Source of the DNA: Cytophagaceae bacterium
GTDB taxonomy: Bacteria > Bacteroidota > Bacteroidia > Cytophagales > Spirosomataceae
Assembly (NCBI GenBank): GCA_947494535.1
Contig: CANLVU010000010.1
Coordinates: 1-37,813 of the forward strand
DNA length: 37,813 nt
Direction: 5' to 3'
The position numbers and the translations under genes are program-made. Shown one piece after another: positions 13,408-27,355 of this stretch (within the stretch, counting starts at the first letter, position 1; each line of letters starts with the position of its first letter). The notes beneath the pieces are model-generated. The model had not been told where the DNA came from, did no database searches, and saw nothing but the letters and a program-made list of their open reading frames with translations.

Positions 13408-13482
13408 GGCGGTTGTAGCTCACTCGGTTAGAGCACTGGTTTGTGGTACCAGGGGTAGTGGGTTCGAATCCCATCATCCGCC
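13408..13482 (+). tRNA. tRNA-His (GTG)
   Basis: The anticodon stem CTGGT/ACCAG encloses the loop TTGTGGT, giving anticodon GTG (His). The gene encodes the extra 5' G at position -1 that histidyl-tRNA synthetase needs, facing C73. The D arm (GCTC...GAGC) and the T arm with TTCGAAT are normal. One acceptor-stem pair is a T-T mismatch (5 with 68 by my fold). After C73 the genome reads CAA, so the full CCA tail is not encoded. It has its own promoter and a terminator directly after it. Confidence 0.93.
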
Positions 13483-13483
13483 C

Positions 13484-13517
13484 AAAAAGCCTCAGTAGAA
13501 ATACTGGGGCTTTTTTT
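13484..13517 (+). terminator. Intrinsic terminator after tRNA-His
   Basis: Arms AAAAAGCCTCAGTA and TACTGGGGCTTTTT pair with one mismatch around GAAA and end in seven T. It begins two bases after the mature tRNA end, separating it from the carotenoid gene. Confidence 0.92.
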
Positions 13518-13530
13518 GTGTTATTTTGTC

Positions 13531-13550
13531 TACATTTGTTTAGAAAACAA
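13531..13550 (+). promoter_or_regulatory. -7 box and overlapping palindrome upstream of the carotenoid gene
   Basis: TACATTTG (13531-13538) is an exact -7 match 16 bp before the ATG at 13555. Overlapping it, TTGTTT-AGA-AAACAA (13536-13550) is a perfect 6-base inverted repeat that would cover the transcription start. That is the position expected of a repressor operator, and the CarH-like regulator is encoded in the same unit (inference). A good -33 TTTG at 19-20 bp is lacking. Confidence 0.5.
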
Positions 13551-13554
13551 TCGT

Positions 13555-14193
13555 ATGAACCCTGTATTTCTCAAACGTTTTTTGATTGTCTTATATGCTG
13601 CCGGCTTAATCGGAATGCATTTGCCTGCAACAGCATCACTTTTTACTTCTTTAGTACCTCTAACACTTTGGTTTACAGCTTTCATTTGTGTGGTTTATTT
13701 TCCCAAGCCCTCGTTTCAAGCGTATCTTTTTTTAGCTTCTCTTGCCATTGCTGGTTGGTTTTTAGAGGTGCAAGGAGTAAGGACGGGTCAAATTTTCGGG
13801 GTTTATAGTTATGGGAAGACCTTAGGATTTAAGTTGATTAACGTACCCATCACCATTGGCTTGAATTGGCTTGTGCTTGTCTTAGCGACTAGTGCCTTAG
13901 TGGAAGAATGGAATATTGCTGGTAAAATCAGCAAAGCGGCGATAGGAGCTGGACTGATGACAGCATTGGATTTTTTAATCGAGCCGGTGGCCGTGCATTT
14001 TGATTTCTGGACTTGGGCCGGAATTCAGGTGCCTACGCAAAACTTTTTAGCTTGGTGGATGGCCTCGTTCTTTTTTCATTTAGCCTATCAAAATACGCCA
14101 TTCCCTTCCAAATCAAGTCTTTTTAGACTCATTGCTGCTCTACAGTTTTTATTCTTTTTAGGACATTGGCTACTTTTACAATTTAATTTCTAA
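13555..14193 (+). CDS. Carotenoid biosynthesis protein (CruF-like, DUF422)
   Basis: A 212-residue polytopic membrane protein from the ATG before NPVFLKRF; the ORF-track start 13 codons earlier lies upstream of the -7 box and inside the terminator. Conserved family segments are GVYSYGKTLG...NVPITIGLNW in the middle and LDFLIEPVAVHFDFWTW near residue 145, ending in a further helix. This family (PF04240) includes CruF, a carotenoid 1',2'-hydratase acting on the psi end group, and related proteins of carotenoid pathways. Which reaction is catalysed here is not settled by sequence. The B12-dependent regulator follows 25 bp downstream. Confidence 0.83.
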   Translation: MNPVFLKRFLIVLYAAGLIGMHLPATASLFTSLVPLTLWFTAFICVVYFPKPSFQAYLFLASLAIAGWFLEVQGVRTGQIFGVYSYGKTLGFKLINVPITIGLNWLVLVLATSALVEEWNIAGKISKAAIGAGLMTALDFLIEPVAVHFDFWTWAGIQVPTQNFLAWWMASFFFHLAYQNTPFPSKSSLFRLIAALQFLFFLGHWLLLQFNF

Positions 14194-14218
14194 ACATTTT
14201 TCTAACTCCCGTGTTACA

Positions 14219-15106
14219 ATGTTGATGAACGTGTACTCTATAAAGGATTTAGAGAATTTTAGTGGCATAAAAGCTCATACGATACGTATTTGGGAGCAGC
14301 GGTATCACTTACTTCAACCAGTTCGGACTGAAACGGGGATTCGTACCTATTCTGACAATGAGTTAAAGCGAATTTTAAATATTGCGACTCTTCAAAATAA
14401 AGGAGGGATCAAGATTTCCAAAATTGCTGAATTATCCGAAGCTGAAATTTCTGAAAAAATTCTTGAACTTTCCGGTGGTGATTTAGATTATCCAGAACAC
14501 ATTCAAGCCATTACCGTAGCGATGATGGACTTGGACGAGTATCGTTTCCAGGTGTTAGCAAAGTCCATTACGGATGCGTATGGTTTTGAAAACTTTATGC
14601 TTCGGGTGATTTATCCTTTTTTGACGCGATTAGGTACTTTATGGCTTTCTGGTTCTGTGGGACCAGCTCAGGAGCACTTTATCACGCATTTAATTCGTCA
14701 GAAAATTATTGCTGCCATTGATTCTCAAATGGCAAAACCGAAAGCGAATGCAAAGAAATTTTTATTGTATCTGCCAGAAGGTGAAATGCACGAAATTGGA
14801 TTACTATTTGCGAGTTACTTAATCCGCGCTCGCCAGCATTCAGCGGTATACTTAGGTCAATCTTTGCCTTTTGATGAATTATGTTTGGCCTACGAAATAC
14901 ACCAACCCGATTATGTCTTCAGTGTATTTACAACCGAACCATCACAGGATGTATTGCCTGCTTATGTGGCAGAATTAGACAAGCATATTCCAGATTCCCA
15001 AATATTATTGACAGGATACAATGTATTGCACTCTCCCGAACCTATTCCGGCAAGAATTCAGCTGATTGGAGATTTCAATACCTTAATTGAAATGATTGAA
15101 TCTTAG
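14219..15106 (+). CDS. MerR-type B12-binding regulator, CarH/LitR photoreceptor-like
   Basis: A 295-residue regulator. The N-terminal MerR helix-turn-helix spans about 5-55 (HTIRIWEQRY, then RTETGIRTYSD). The middle helical domain holds W142 and E152-H153, an exact Wx9EH, the upper-face adenosylcobalamin signature of CarH. The C-terminal cobalamin domain has E189-x-H191-x-x-G194, with His as the lower axial ligand. In known CarH proteins, AdoCbl drives tetramer repressor binding in the dark and light breaks it up, so carotenoid genes turn on. The later GG loop is degenerate (LTGYN). The gene follows the CruF-like gene by 25 bp. A start at the third codon (ATG) is also possible. Confidence 0.88.
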   Translation: MLMNVYSIKDLENFSGIKAHTIRIWEQRYHLLQPVRTETGIRTYSDNELKRILNIATLQNKGGIKISKIAELSEAEISEKILELSGGDLDYPEHIQAITVAMMDLDEYRFQVLAKSITDAYGFENFMLRVIYPFLTRLGTLWLSGSVGPAQEHFITHLIRQKIIAAIDSQMAKPKANAKKFLLYLPEGEMHEIGLLFASYLIRARQHSAVYLGQSLPFDELCLAYEIHQPDYVFSVFTTEPSQDVLPAYVAELDKHIPDSQILLTGYNVLHSPEPIPARIQLIGDFNTLIEMIES

Positions 15107-25885: not shown

Positions 25886-25914
25886 TTGTTAATTTACAAA
25901 ATTAGTTATTTTTG
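25886..25914 (+). promoter_or_regulatory. Promoter of the kelch-like gene
   Basis: TTG at 25886-25888, 18 bp spacer, TATTTTTG at 25907-25914. The expected transcription start is just before the ATG at 25934, which supports that start rather than the ORF-track ATG at 25886 (inside the promoter). Confidence 0.65.
25897..25904 (-). promoter_or_regulatory. Candidate -7 box for psd
   Basis: The minus strand reads TAATTTTG, an exact TAnnTTTG match, 31 bp before the psd ATG. It overlaps the spacer of the opposite-strand promoter, so the two transcription units may compete for polymerase. Confidence 0.45.
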
Positions 25915-25933
25915 GGGACGCAACCACAATTCC

Positions 25934-27355
25934 ATGCTAAAAAAAGCGAGTCTGTTCCTCTTCTTGTTTATTCAAATCGCTTACAATGGGCTTGGACAGT
26001 TTATTAAATGGCAAGAGGATCACTCAGTAAATTATTTACGCTTAAACCTCATTACGCGTGAAATTGATCGCTTTAATCTGGCCACAGAATGGGTGAAATT
26101 AGATACCATTAAGTCCGAAAATGTGGATTTCCGTGAAATTCTTCCTACCGCTGAGGGTATTCATGAATTTCGGATTAATCAAACTTCCACCTACTATTTA
26201 ACGATTCATTGTACAGGGCAAGTATATCTATTAGATAAATCTAAATGGACCTTAAAGCGTATAGATCATACTTTTTTTCGTGGAGCTAATTGTAAGAGTA
26301 GTGTGTTTATGCGGGGAGAGGATATTTATTCCTTTGGTGGCTATGGCTTCTGGAGATCAACGAATATCATTACTAAATATGATTTCATTGCCAAAGAATG
26401 GTTAAGTATAGCCGCAGAAGGAGACATGCCTGAGTCAATATTCGATGGAATGGCAGGGTATTCATCTAAAAAAGATCGTTTTGTTCTTTTGAGCACCGTA
26501 AATATGAACGATACGGAAAAGAAGACCGCTTTTAATCGTGATTATGGTATTTATGAGTATGATTTTTTTAACCAAAAATTCACGCGAACCGGAGAAATTA
26601 AGTTACCGATTGTTTTGAATTTTCTGGATTCAAAAGAAACGAAACCCTTTGTATTTAATGGCCGGTATTTTATTATCTCCGATAAACCGAACAAAGAATT
26701 TGCCTATGATACCATGTTTTTCATTGATGTGGAGGATAATTATAAGGTCTACCAATGGAAAAATCCACACCGTATTTACCTAAATGCGCAACAACAGGGG
26801 GATGCCACAGAATCTTACATGCATGTAAGTGGGGATTCCCTTATTTGGTCGAATAATTTAGTAAAAGCTTCACTAGATGAGCCTGGATATACGGTAGCCT
26901 CCTTGCAAACTTTATTAAATGAATCAGAATACATTGGTACGTTGGATGAAGGAACCTGGGTTGAGAAGTTTTCTATTTTGGGTGGGATTACTTTAGGAGT
27001 TATGTTAATCATTTTTATTTTCATTGTTTACAATCGATATCAACTGAATAAGTTAAATAAGTCGATTCGATTAATGCTGGGAGCAAATGAGCGTTTATTT
27101 TTAGATTTTTTGATCTTGAATTACGATCAAGGATTCGTGAATGGTCATCAAATCATTGCTTTTTTTGGCAAACACAAAAGTTCTCCTGAATCTCAAAGGC
27201 AGTTCAGGGCTAAATTAATAGAGAACTTTACCAAAACCCTGGGTTTGATTTTTGCTGATCTGGAAATTTTAGATATTCAATTAGATGAACGGGATCAACG
27301 TATGTTTACGTACCGTTTGCAATCAGAAATCTACAAAAAGCTTAAAAGTCTCTAA
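25934..27355 (+). CDS. Kelch-like periplasmic propeller with one TM helix and cytoplasmic tail
   Basis: About 473 residues from the ATG before LKKASLFL. A signal peptide ends near GLGQF. The long exported part has kelch-like features: YSFGGYGFWRSTNIITKYDF resembles a kelch blade, followed by YSSKKDRFVLLS. One transmembrane helix (around residues 345-365, TLGVMLIIFIFIV) leads into about 108 cytoplasmic residues, helical, with SPESQRQFRAKLIENF that could be a divergent winged helix (uncertain). The layout suggests a one-component membrane signal protein, but I cannot name a family. It is convergent with the lipoprotein gene, sharing CTAA. Confidence 0.65.
   Translation: MLKKASLFLFLFIQIAYNGLGQFIKWQEDHSVNYLRLNLITREIDRFNLATEWVKLDTIKSENVDFREILPTAEGIHEFRINQTSTYYLTIHCTGQVYLLDKSKWTLKRIDHTFFRGANCKSSVFMRGEDIYSFGGYGFWRSTNIITKYDFIAKEWLSIAAEGDMPESIFDGMAGYSSKKDRFVLLSTVNMNDTEKKTAFNRDYGIYEYDFFNQKFTRTGEIKLPIVLNFLDSKETKPFVFNGRYFIISDKPNKEFAYDTMFFIDVEDNYKVYQWKNPHRIYLNAQQQGDATESYMHVSGDSLIWSNNLVKASLDEPGYTVASLQTLLNESEYIGTLDEGTWVEKFSILGGITLGVMLIIFIFIVYNRYQLNKLNKSIRLMLGANERLFLDFLILNYDQGFVNGHQIIAFFGKHKSSPESQRQFRAKLIENFTKTLGLIFADLEILDIQLDERDQRMFTYRLQSEIYKKLKSL

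Follow-up and report, generated by a model that had tools for sequence, protein, structure and literature searches.

The stretch of DNA analysed here (the window; 37,813 nucleotides) is contig 10 of the 2.03 Mb, 81% complete genome of a freshwater Aquirufa-type bacterium, and the closest named relative found is Aquirufa antheringensis, with 94% identity in the protein of interest. As the initial annotation had it, a CruF-like carotenoid gene (ATG at 13555, stop codon at 14191–14193) precedes a carH-like gene on the same strand by 25 bp; position 13531, where that annotation began, lies 24 bp 5′ of the cruF ATG. The features of the locus are as follows.

13409–13483, forward strand: tRNA-His
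13515–13538, forward strand: promoter-like TTTG-N12-TACATTTG 5′ of cruF-carH, of the Bacteroidota −33/−7 type
13555–14193, forward strand: CruF-like ORF, candidate carotenoid 1,2-hydratase (Pfam PF04240 Caroten_synth, 3e-25, above the Pfam cut-off)
14164–14199, forward strand: very weak operator-like sequence spanning the cruF stop codon (position weight matrix (PWM) score −2.1; significance doubtful)
14219–15106, forward strand: carH-like gene, 295 aa (alternative start ATG at 14225), encoding a MerR DNA-binding domain, a cobalamin-binding four-helix bundle and a Rossmann domain
14234–14440, forward strand: MerR winged-helix DNA-binding domain, residues 6–74 (Pfam PF13411 MerR_1, 1.7e-14)
14504–14707, forward strand: B12-binding_2 four-helix bundle, residues 96–163 (Pfam PF02607, 3.4e-7)
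14642–14677, forward strand: Wx9EH motif of the adenosyl pocket, W142 (codon 14642–14644), E152 and H153 (codons 14672–14677)
14645–14647, forward strand: Leu143, aligned with His132 of Thermus thermophilus CarH (TtCarH), the light-state cobalt ligand
14783–14800, forward strand: ExHxxG motif, E189, H191 (lower axial cobalt ligand) and G194
15008–15022, forward strand: LTGYN (L264-T-G266-Y-N268) in place of the GG loop

The tRNA-His and a terminator-like hairpin 3′ of it part sodA from cruF and carH, so that the latter pair looks like a unit of its own, and its two genes are probably cotranscribed. The CruF function of the neighbour rests on PF04240 together with the presence of CrtD elsewhere in the genome. 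The ORF falls below the NCBIfam CruF equivalog cut-offs, its best model giving 58.8 bits where 154.7 are required. Elsewhere in the window, an ORF of 489 aa (25886–27355) gave no Pfam match at 1e-5.

The regulator is a CarH-type protein, as first proposed, and its fold and pocket match Thermus CarH in both sequence and structure. Its best PDB sequence matches are Thermus LitR/CarH (3whp, 6.8e-19; 5c8d, 8.2e-19), and Foldseek, given an AlphaFold2 model with a pLDDT of 86, ranks 5c8d, 5c8e and 5c8f first, followed by CtMerR (8jbt) and the cobalamin domains of TtCarH. Pfam, and the model compared with 5c8d/5c8e, thus place it in the CarH, or LitR class I, architecture. In the profile comparison, CarH is the best NCBIfam model, but the NF052513 equivalog reaches 92.3 bits against a cut-off of 400, which is a score threshold rather than a biological feature. 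Class II LitR proteins (PplR and PmlR2 of Pseudomonas), whose regulon includes photolyase, share the MerR domain and four-helix bundle but do without the second B12-binding domain (PMC9758184); the window protein has that Rossmann domain, complete with H191, and a class II identity was discarded.

Within the family, 144 of 151 genomes have a CarH-like match, in a few cases a weak one confined to the DNA-binding domain, and so do 35 of 148 genomes sampled across the phylum (threshold 1e-20); some Bacteroidota genomes (G199, G292 and G228) hold two or three CarH-like paralogues. In a tree with limited sampling, a partial, long-branched TtCarH row and a bootstrap that is not settled, the Bacteroidota proteins split from TtCarH and Bdellovibrionota relatives with support of 99/99. 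The Bdellovibrionota proteins (loci L075–L081) show a replacement of W131, with V at the aligned column, while E141, H142 and H177 are kept, and no carotenoid genes were recognised near them.

The residues that hold cobalamin in TtCarH (W131, E141, H142 and H177) correspond to W142, E152, H153 and H191 of the window protein, and these, together with E189 and G194, are intact at the positions given by the initial annotation. W142, E152, H153, E189 and H191 are each kept in 61 of 61 Bacteroidota relatives. A second alignment, in which the window's own protein stands with 29 relatives from other families (30 rows in all), retains W in 30/30, E152 in 30/30, H153 in 28/30 and H191 in 29/30. Conservation among homologues holds for Wx9EH, E189 and H191 and is less strict for G194, which varies to S, A or P (S or A in many relatives), a trait of the clade; an automatic pattern search that suggested loss of ExHxxG in many relatives was set aside, as in the alignment E189 and H191 persist and G194 alone varies. 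The window protein also has the light-response signature published as GxxW, EH, GxxH and GxxxP (PMC11796333), although members of the second set often have Asn in place of the G of GxxH. The altered GG loop had been read as a degeneration special to this gene. That reading is not supported: nearly all the Bacteroidota proteins compared (both sets) have Tyr or some other residue in place of the second G, so the change is no peculiarity of the window gene.

A candidate operator emerged from the regions upstream of an extracytoplasmic function (ECF) sigma gene, in the form of the palindrome TTTTGTTTAA-N16-TTRAACAAAA, and across Bacteroidota TGTTTAA-N16-TTRAACA is found, far more often than chance would allow, in front of carH, crtI or an ECF-sigma-crtI-crtB operon. 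A search of 378 kb, made up of 27 carH loci from outside Aquirufa, gave for the core TGTTTAA/TTNAACA 13 exact matches at a spacer of 16 and at most one at any other spacer, and for the related TGTTTA-N18-TAAACA 16 matches against 0.07 in a Markov control. In 29 loci of other families, independent of the discovery, 32 matches occur where 0.085 would be expected, and matches fall at two adjacent spacers only; the spacer longer by one base also gave 7. These sites lie 36–96 bp (in one case 236–291 bp) 5′ of carH, or just 5′ of crtI or the sigma gene; because each locus is a short stretch around carH, their closeness to that gene is partly a matter of construction, a bias that touches neither the spacer specificity nor the whole-genome search. 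Genome-wide, a perfect site lies 5′ of sigma-crtI-crtB in 25 of 25 Aquirufa-type genomes, where a reversed control pattern gave almost none; when two mismatches were allowed, the control gave equally many matches, so only perfect sites were used. The window's genome has exactly two, 42 bp apart and both 5′ of its ECF-sigma-crtI-crtB operon. In three complete or near-complete genomes that lack carH (G073, G101 and G030), a comparison limited to carH and the site found no operator site. One operator-like site in a genome without carH (G045) lies between unrelated genes, and it was taken as chance, the control also giving one. The palindrome is assigned to the CarH-like protein as its putative binding site purely by association. 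In relatives, sites also precede photolyase/SDR clusters and genes for fasciclin-domain proteins, which suggests a wider light regulon. Such sites are found at L065:15979, L142:1502, L063:6404, L143:1502, L147:1502 and L161:1502.

The initial annotation had the photoreceptor controlling the adjacent cruF, and although the 25 bp spacing and shared strand favour cruF as the main target, we consider this unlikely. The window contains 32 three-mismatch matches to the consensus where 26.5 are expected, and its best PWM scores range from −1.0 to −3.6, far under the training sites (at least 18.6) and the two sites at the crt promoter (38.9 and 38.7). The very weak stretch at 14164 and the top-scoring position of the cruF-carH promoter (−3.6, at 13514) do rank second and fourth within the window, and several relatives of the genus have a AAACATTTT half-site at the position of the cruF stop; in several relatives, an operator site lies between cruF and carH, which counts against cruF as the target. 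A look by eye for direct repeats of the 11-bp TtCarH type in the cruF promoter turned up nothing convincing. With operators in the window at chance level and perfect ones in front of ECF-sigma-crtI-crtB on another contig (contig 73; the CrtD gene is on contig 38), the claim about cruF gives way, and the target is likely to be the main crt operon elsewhere in the genome. The broader link to carotenoid genes, on the other hand, stands, through both the predicted operator at the crt promoter and the crt-cluster neighbours of carH in the phylum. In Pontibacter, Botryobacter and Mariniradius, carH sits in a cluster with crtZ, an ECF sigma gene, crtI, crtB and cyclase candidates (names given by sequence inspection; for the window's own genome the identities of crtI, crtB and sigma were checked), and in many other families carH is followed directly by crtI or by that ECF sigma gene. 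Many genomes have the palindrome immediately upstream of carH.

Taken together, the regulator is most likely an adenosylcobalamin (AdoCbl) light sensor that would act on the main crt operon in trans, and we hold with good confidence that it represses transcription in the manner of CarH (LitR class I), dependent on AdoCbl and inactivated by light, with TGTTTAA-N16-TTRAACA palindromes keeping sigma-crtI-crtB shut until light arrives. In the dark, AdoCbl would be held by H191 from below and by the W142/E152 pocket from above, giving a tetramer that binds the palindrome; with tandem palindromes covering the promoter of ECF sigma-crtI-crtB, the operon would be shut. Light would cut the Co–C bond, the adenosyl group would leave, the tetramer would dissociate, and carotenoid synthesis would be turned on. 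The cruF and carH genes themselves would be transcribed from an ordinary promoter that has no good CarH operator.

The light-state step of this scheme would have to differ from that of TtCarH. The upper cobalt ligand formed there by His132 is replaced by Leu143 in the window protein, and in about 90 Bacteroidota relatives the position is L, I, Q, M, V, T, N, S, R, G or A and never His, so that a bis-His photoproduct of the canonical kind is unlikely; the light state would be expected instead to be a water-ligated cobalamin. We did not count His132 as defining CarH, since CtMerR does without it. In one study, the H132A variant of TtCarH mostly kept its tetrameric state when illuminated, although an earlier report saw disassembly (PMC10442372). 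CtMerR has Arg at this position, and light nevertheless converts its tetramer into monomers (PMC11796333). A light switch in the window protein is thus plausible, whereas the canonical photoproduct is not. One may nevertheless envision a repressor that depends on AdoCbl yet is practically blind to light, sensing B12 or redox state, the missing histidine leaving the tetramer in place after photolysis. The consistent replacement of His132 (L, I, Q, V and M among others) and the behaviour of H132A in light speak for it; CtMerR, the retention of the adenosyl-holding W142 and E152, and operator sites in front of photolyase clusters and crt genes, which point to light, make it quite improbable. We thus retain the light-inactivated repressor as the preferred reading.

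As to the direction of control, the protein might instead be an activator of MerR type at the crt promoter. A dyad that straddles the promoter region is usual for MerR activators, and the one described here does straddle the crt promoter region. Many genomes, however, have the site immediately 5′ of carH, as in autorepression, and the characterised CarH proteins cited here repress (PMC8156234), so that activation appears very doubtful.

The host would need B12, as the initial annotation pointed out, and the genes for its supply are in fact present: the window's genome has a BtuB-like receptor gene behind a cobalamin riboswitch, a PduO-type adenosyltransferase above cut-off, and MetH. Methylmalonyl-CoA mutase (MCM), in contrast, is found in none of 21 genomes of the genus, and no B12-dependent ribonucleotide reductase was found in the window's genome, whose reductase is of class I; a NrdJ-like match proved to be class I NrdA. 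CarH is therefore the main user of AdoCbl found, riboswitch sensing possibly apart, in a search for other AdoCbl enzymes that relied on the B12-binding Pfam domain. The link between the adenosyltransferase and CarH is no more than suggestive, because in one genome (G030) the enzyme occurs where carH is missing and so must not depend on CarH for its retention. In the BtuB-like gene (L163:4905–7034; own copy L164:4373–6400), a 7/21-bp tandem repeat, some 180 bp long and with units of the AGTCGCT type, lies at the 5′ end of the coding sequence, just 3′ of the riboswitch; gain or loss of 7-bp units there would alter the frame. Least credible of the alternatives is a repressor in the manner of Myxococcus xanthus CarA, which shares the architecture, represses crt genes and, with a canonical B12-binding motif, binds its operator independently of B12 (PMC8156234), so that the window protein would answer to another signal or an antirepressor: the relaxed G194 and GG loop of the clade would fit, but the window protein keeps the pocket and its host the B12 supply, W, E, H and the H177 equivalent are nearly invariant across the phylum, suggesting a cofactor in use, and the genus retains an adenosyltransferase while lacking MCM and NrdJ.

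Set beside the known systems, the light-inactivated CarH repressor proposed here resembles TtCarH (PDB 5c8d/5c8e/5c8f; LitR class I) in its three domains, its pocket residues and its link to carotenoid genes, but identity is only about 23%, Leu stands for His132, the GG loop is altered, and the operator predicted here takes the form of an inverted repeat whose halves stand 16 bp apart rather than tandem 11-bp direct repeats. On these comparisons, the Bacteroidota branch most likely differs from TtCarH in both its light-state ligand and its operator design. CtMerR (Chloracidobacterium thermophilum; PDB 8jbs/8jbt), an AdoCbl photoreceptor from a different phylum, has a cobalamin domain whose fold matches the model (16% identity in the structural alignment), is likewise without His at this position, and demonstrates that light-driven monomerisation is possible in that state (PMC11796333). 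In Nonlabens spongiae, also a member of the Bacteroidota, a MerR-type gene heads a crt cluster beside crtI, crtB, crtD and cruF, a likeness of gene context alone; CruF was functionally tested there and the MerR gene was assigned no function (PMC11855829).

At the level of the phylum, we propose tentatively, and with somewhat less than even confidence, a distinct Bacteroidota CarH branch in which His132 is replaced throughout and light switching would proceed without bis-His cobalamin, which shares the inverted-repeat operator TGTTTAA-N16-TTRAACA 5′ of carH, crt, photolyase and fasciclin genes, and for which streamlined Aquirufa may keep its AdoCbl-making enzyme largely for light sensing. Light-induced pigment is known in Bacteroidota. 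In a light-responsive Chryseobacterium, car/lit genes were reported absent and an unknown regulator was proposed (PMC7064467). Aquirufa isolates are red when grown in daylight (PMC11861422), a dark-grown comparison not being found in the literature searched, and many Aquirufa strains carry rhodopsin genes (PMC11861422, PMC10821818). In the open-access literature, to which the search was confined (subscription papers lay outside its scope), we found no characterised Bacteroidota CarH and no description of this operator. Published work on TtCarH and CtMerR disagrees as to whether the His132 ligand is needed, and the Bacteroidota branch offers a natural test of that need in CarH-type switching. 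A widespread CarH branch and its predicted operator would together give Bacteroidota a concrete candidate regulator and a testable list of targets.
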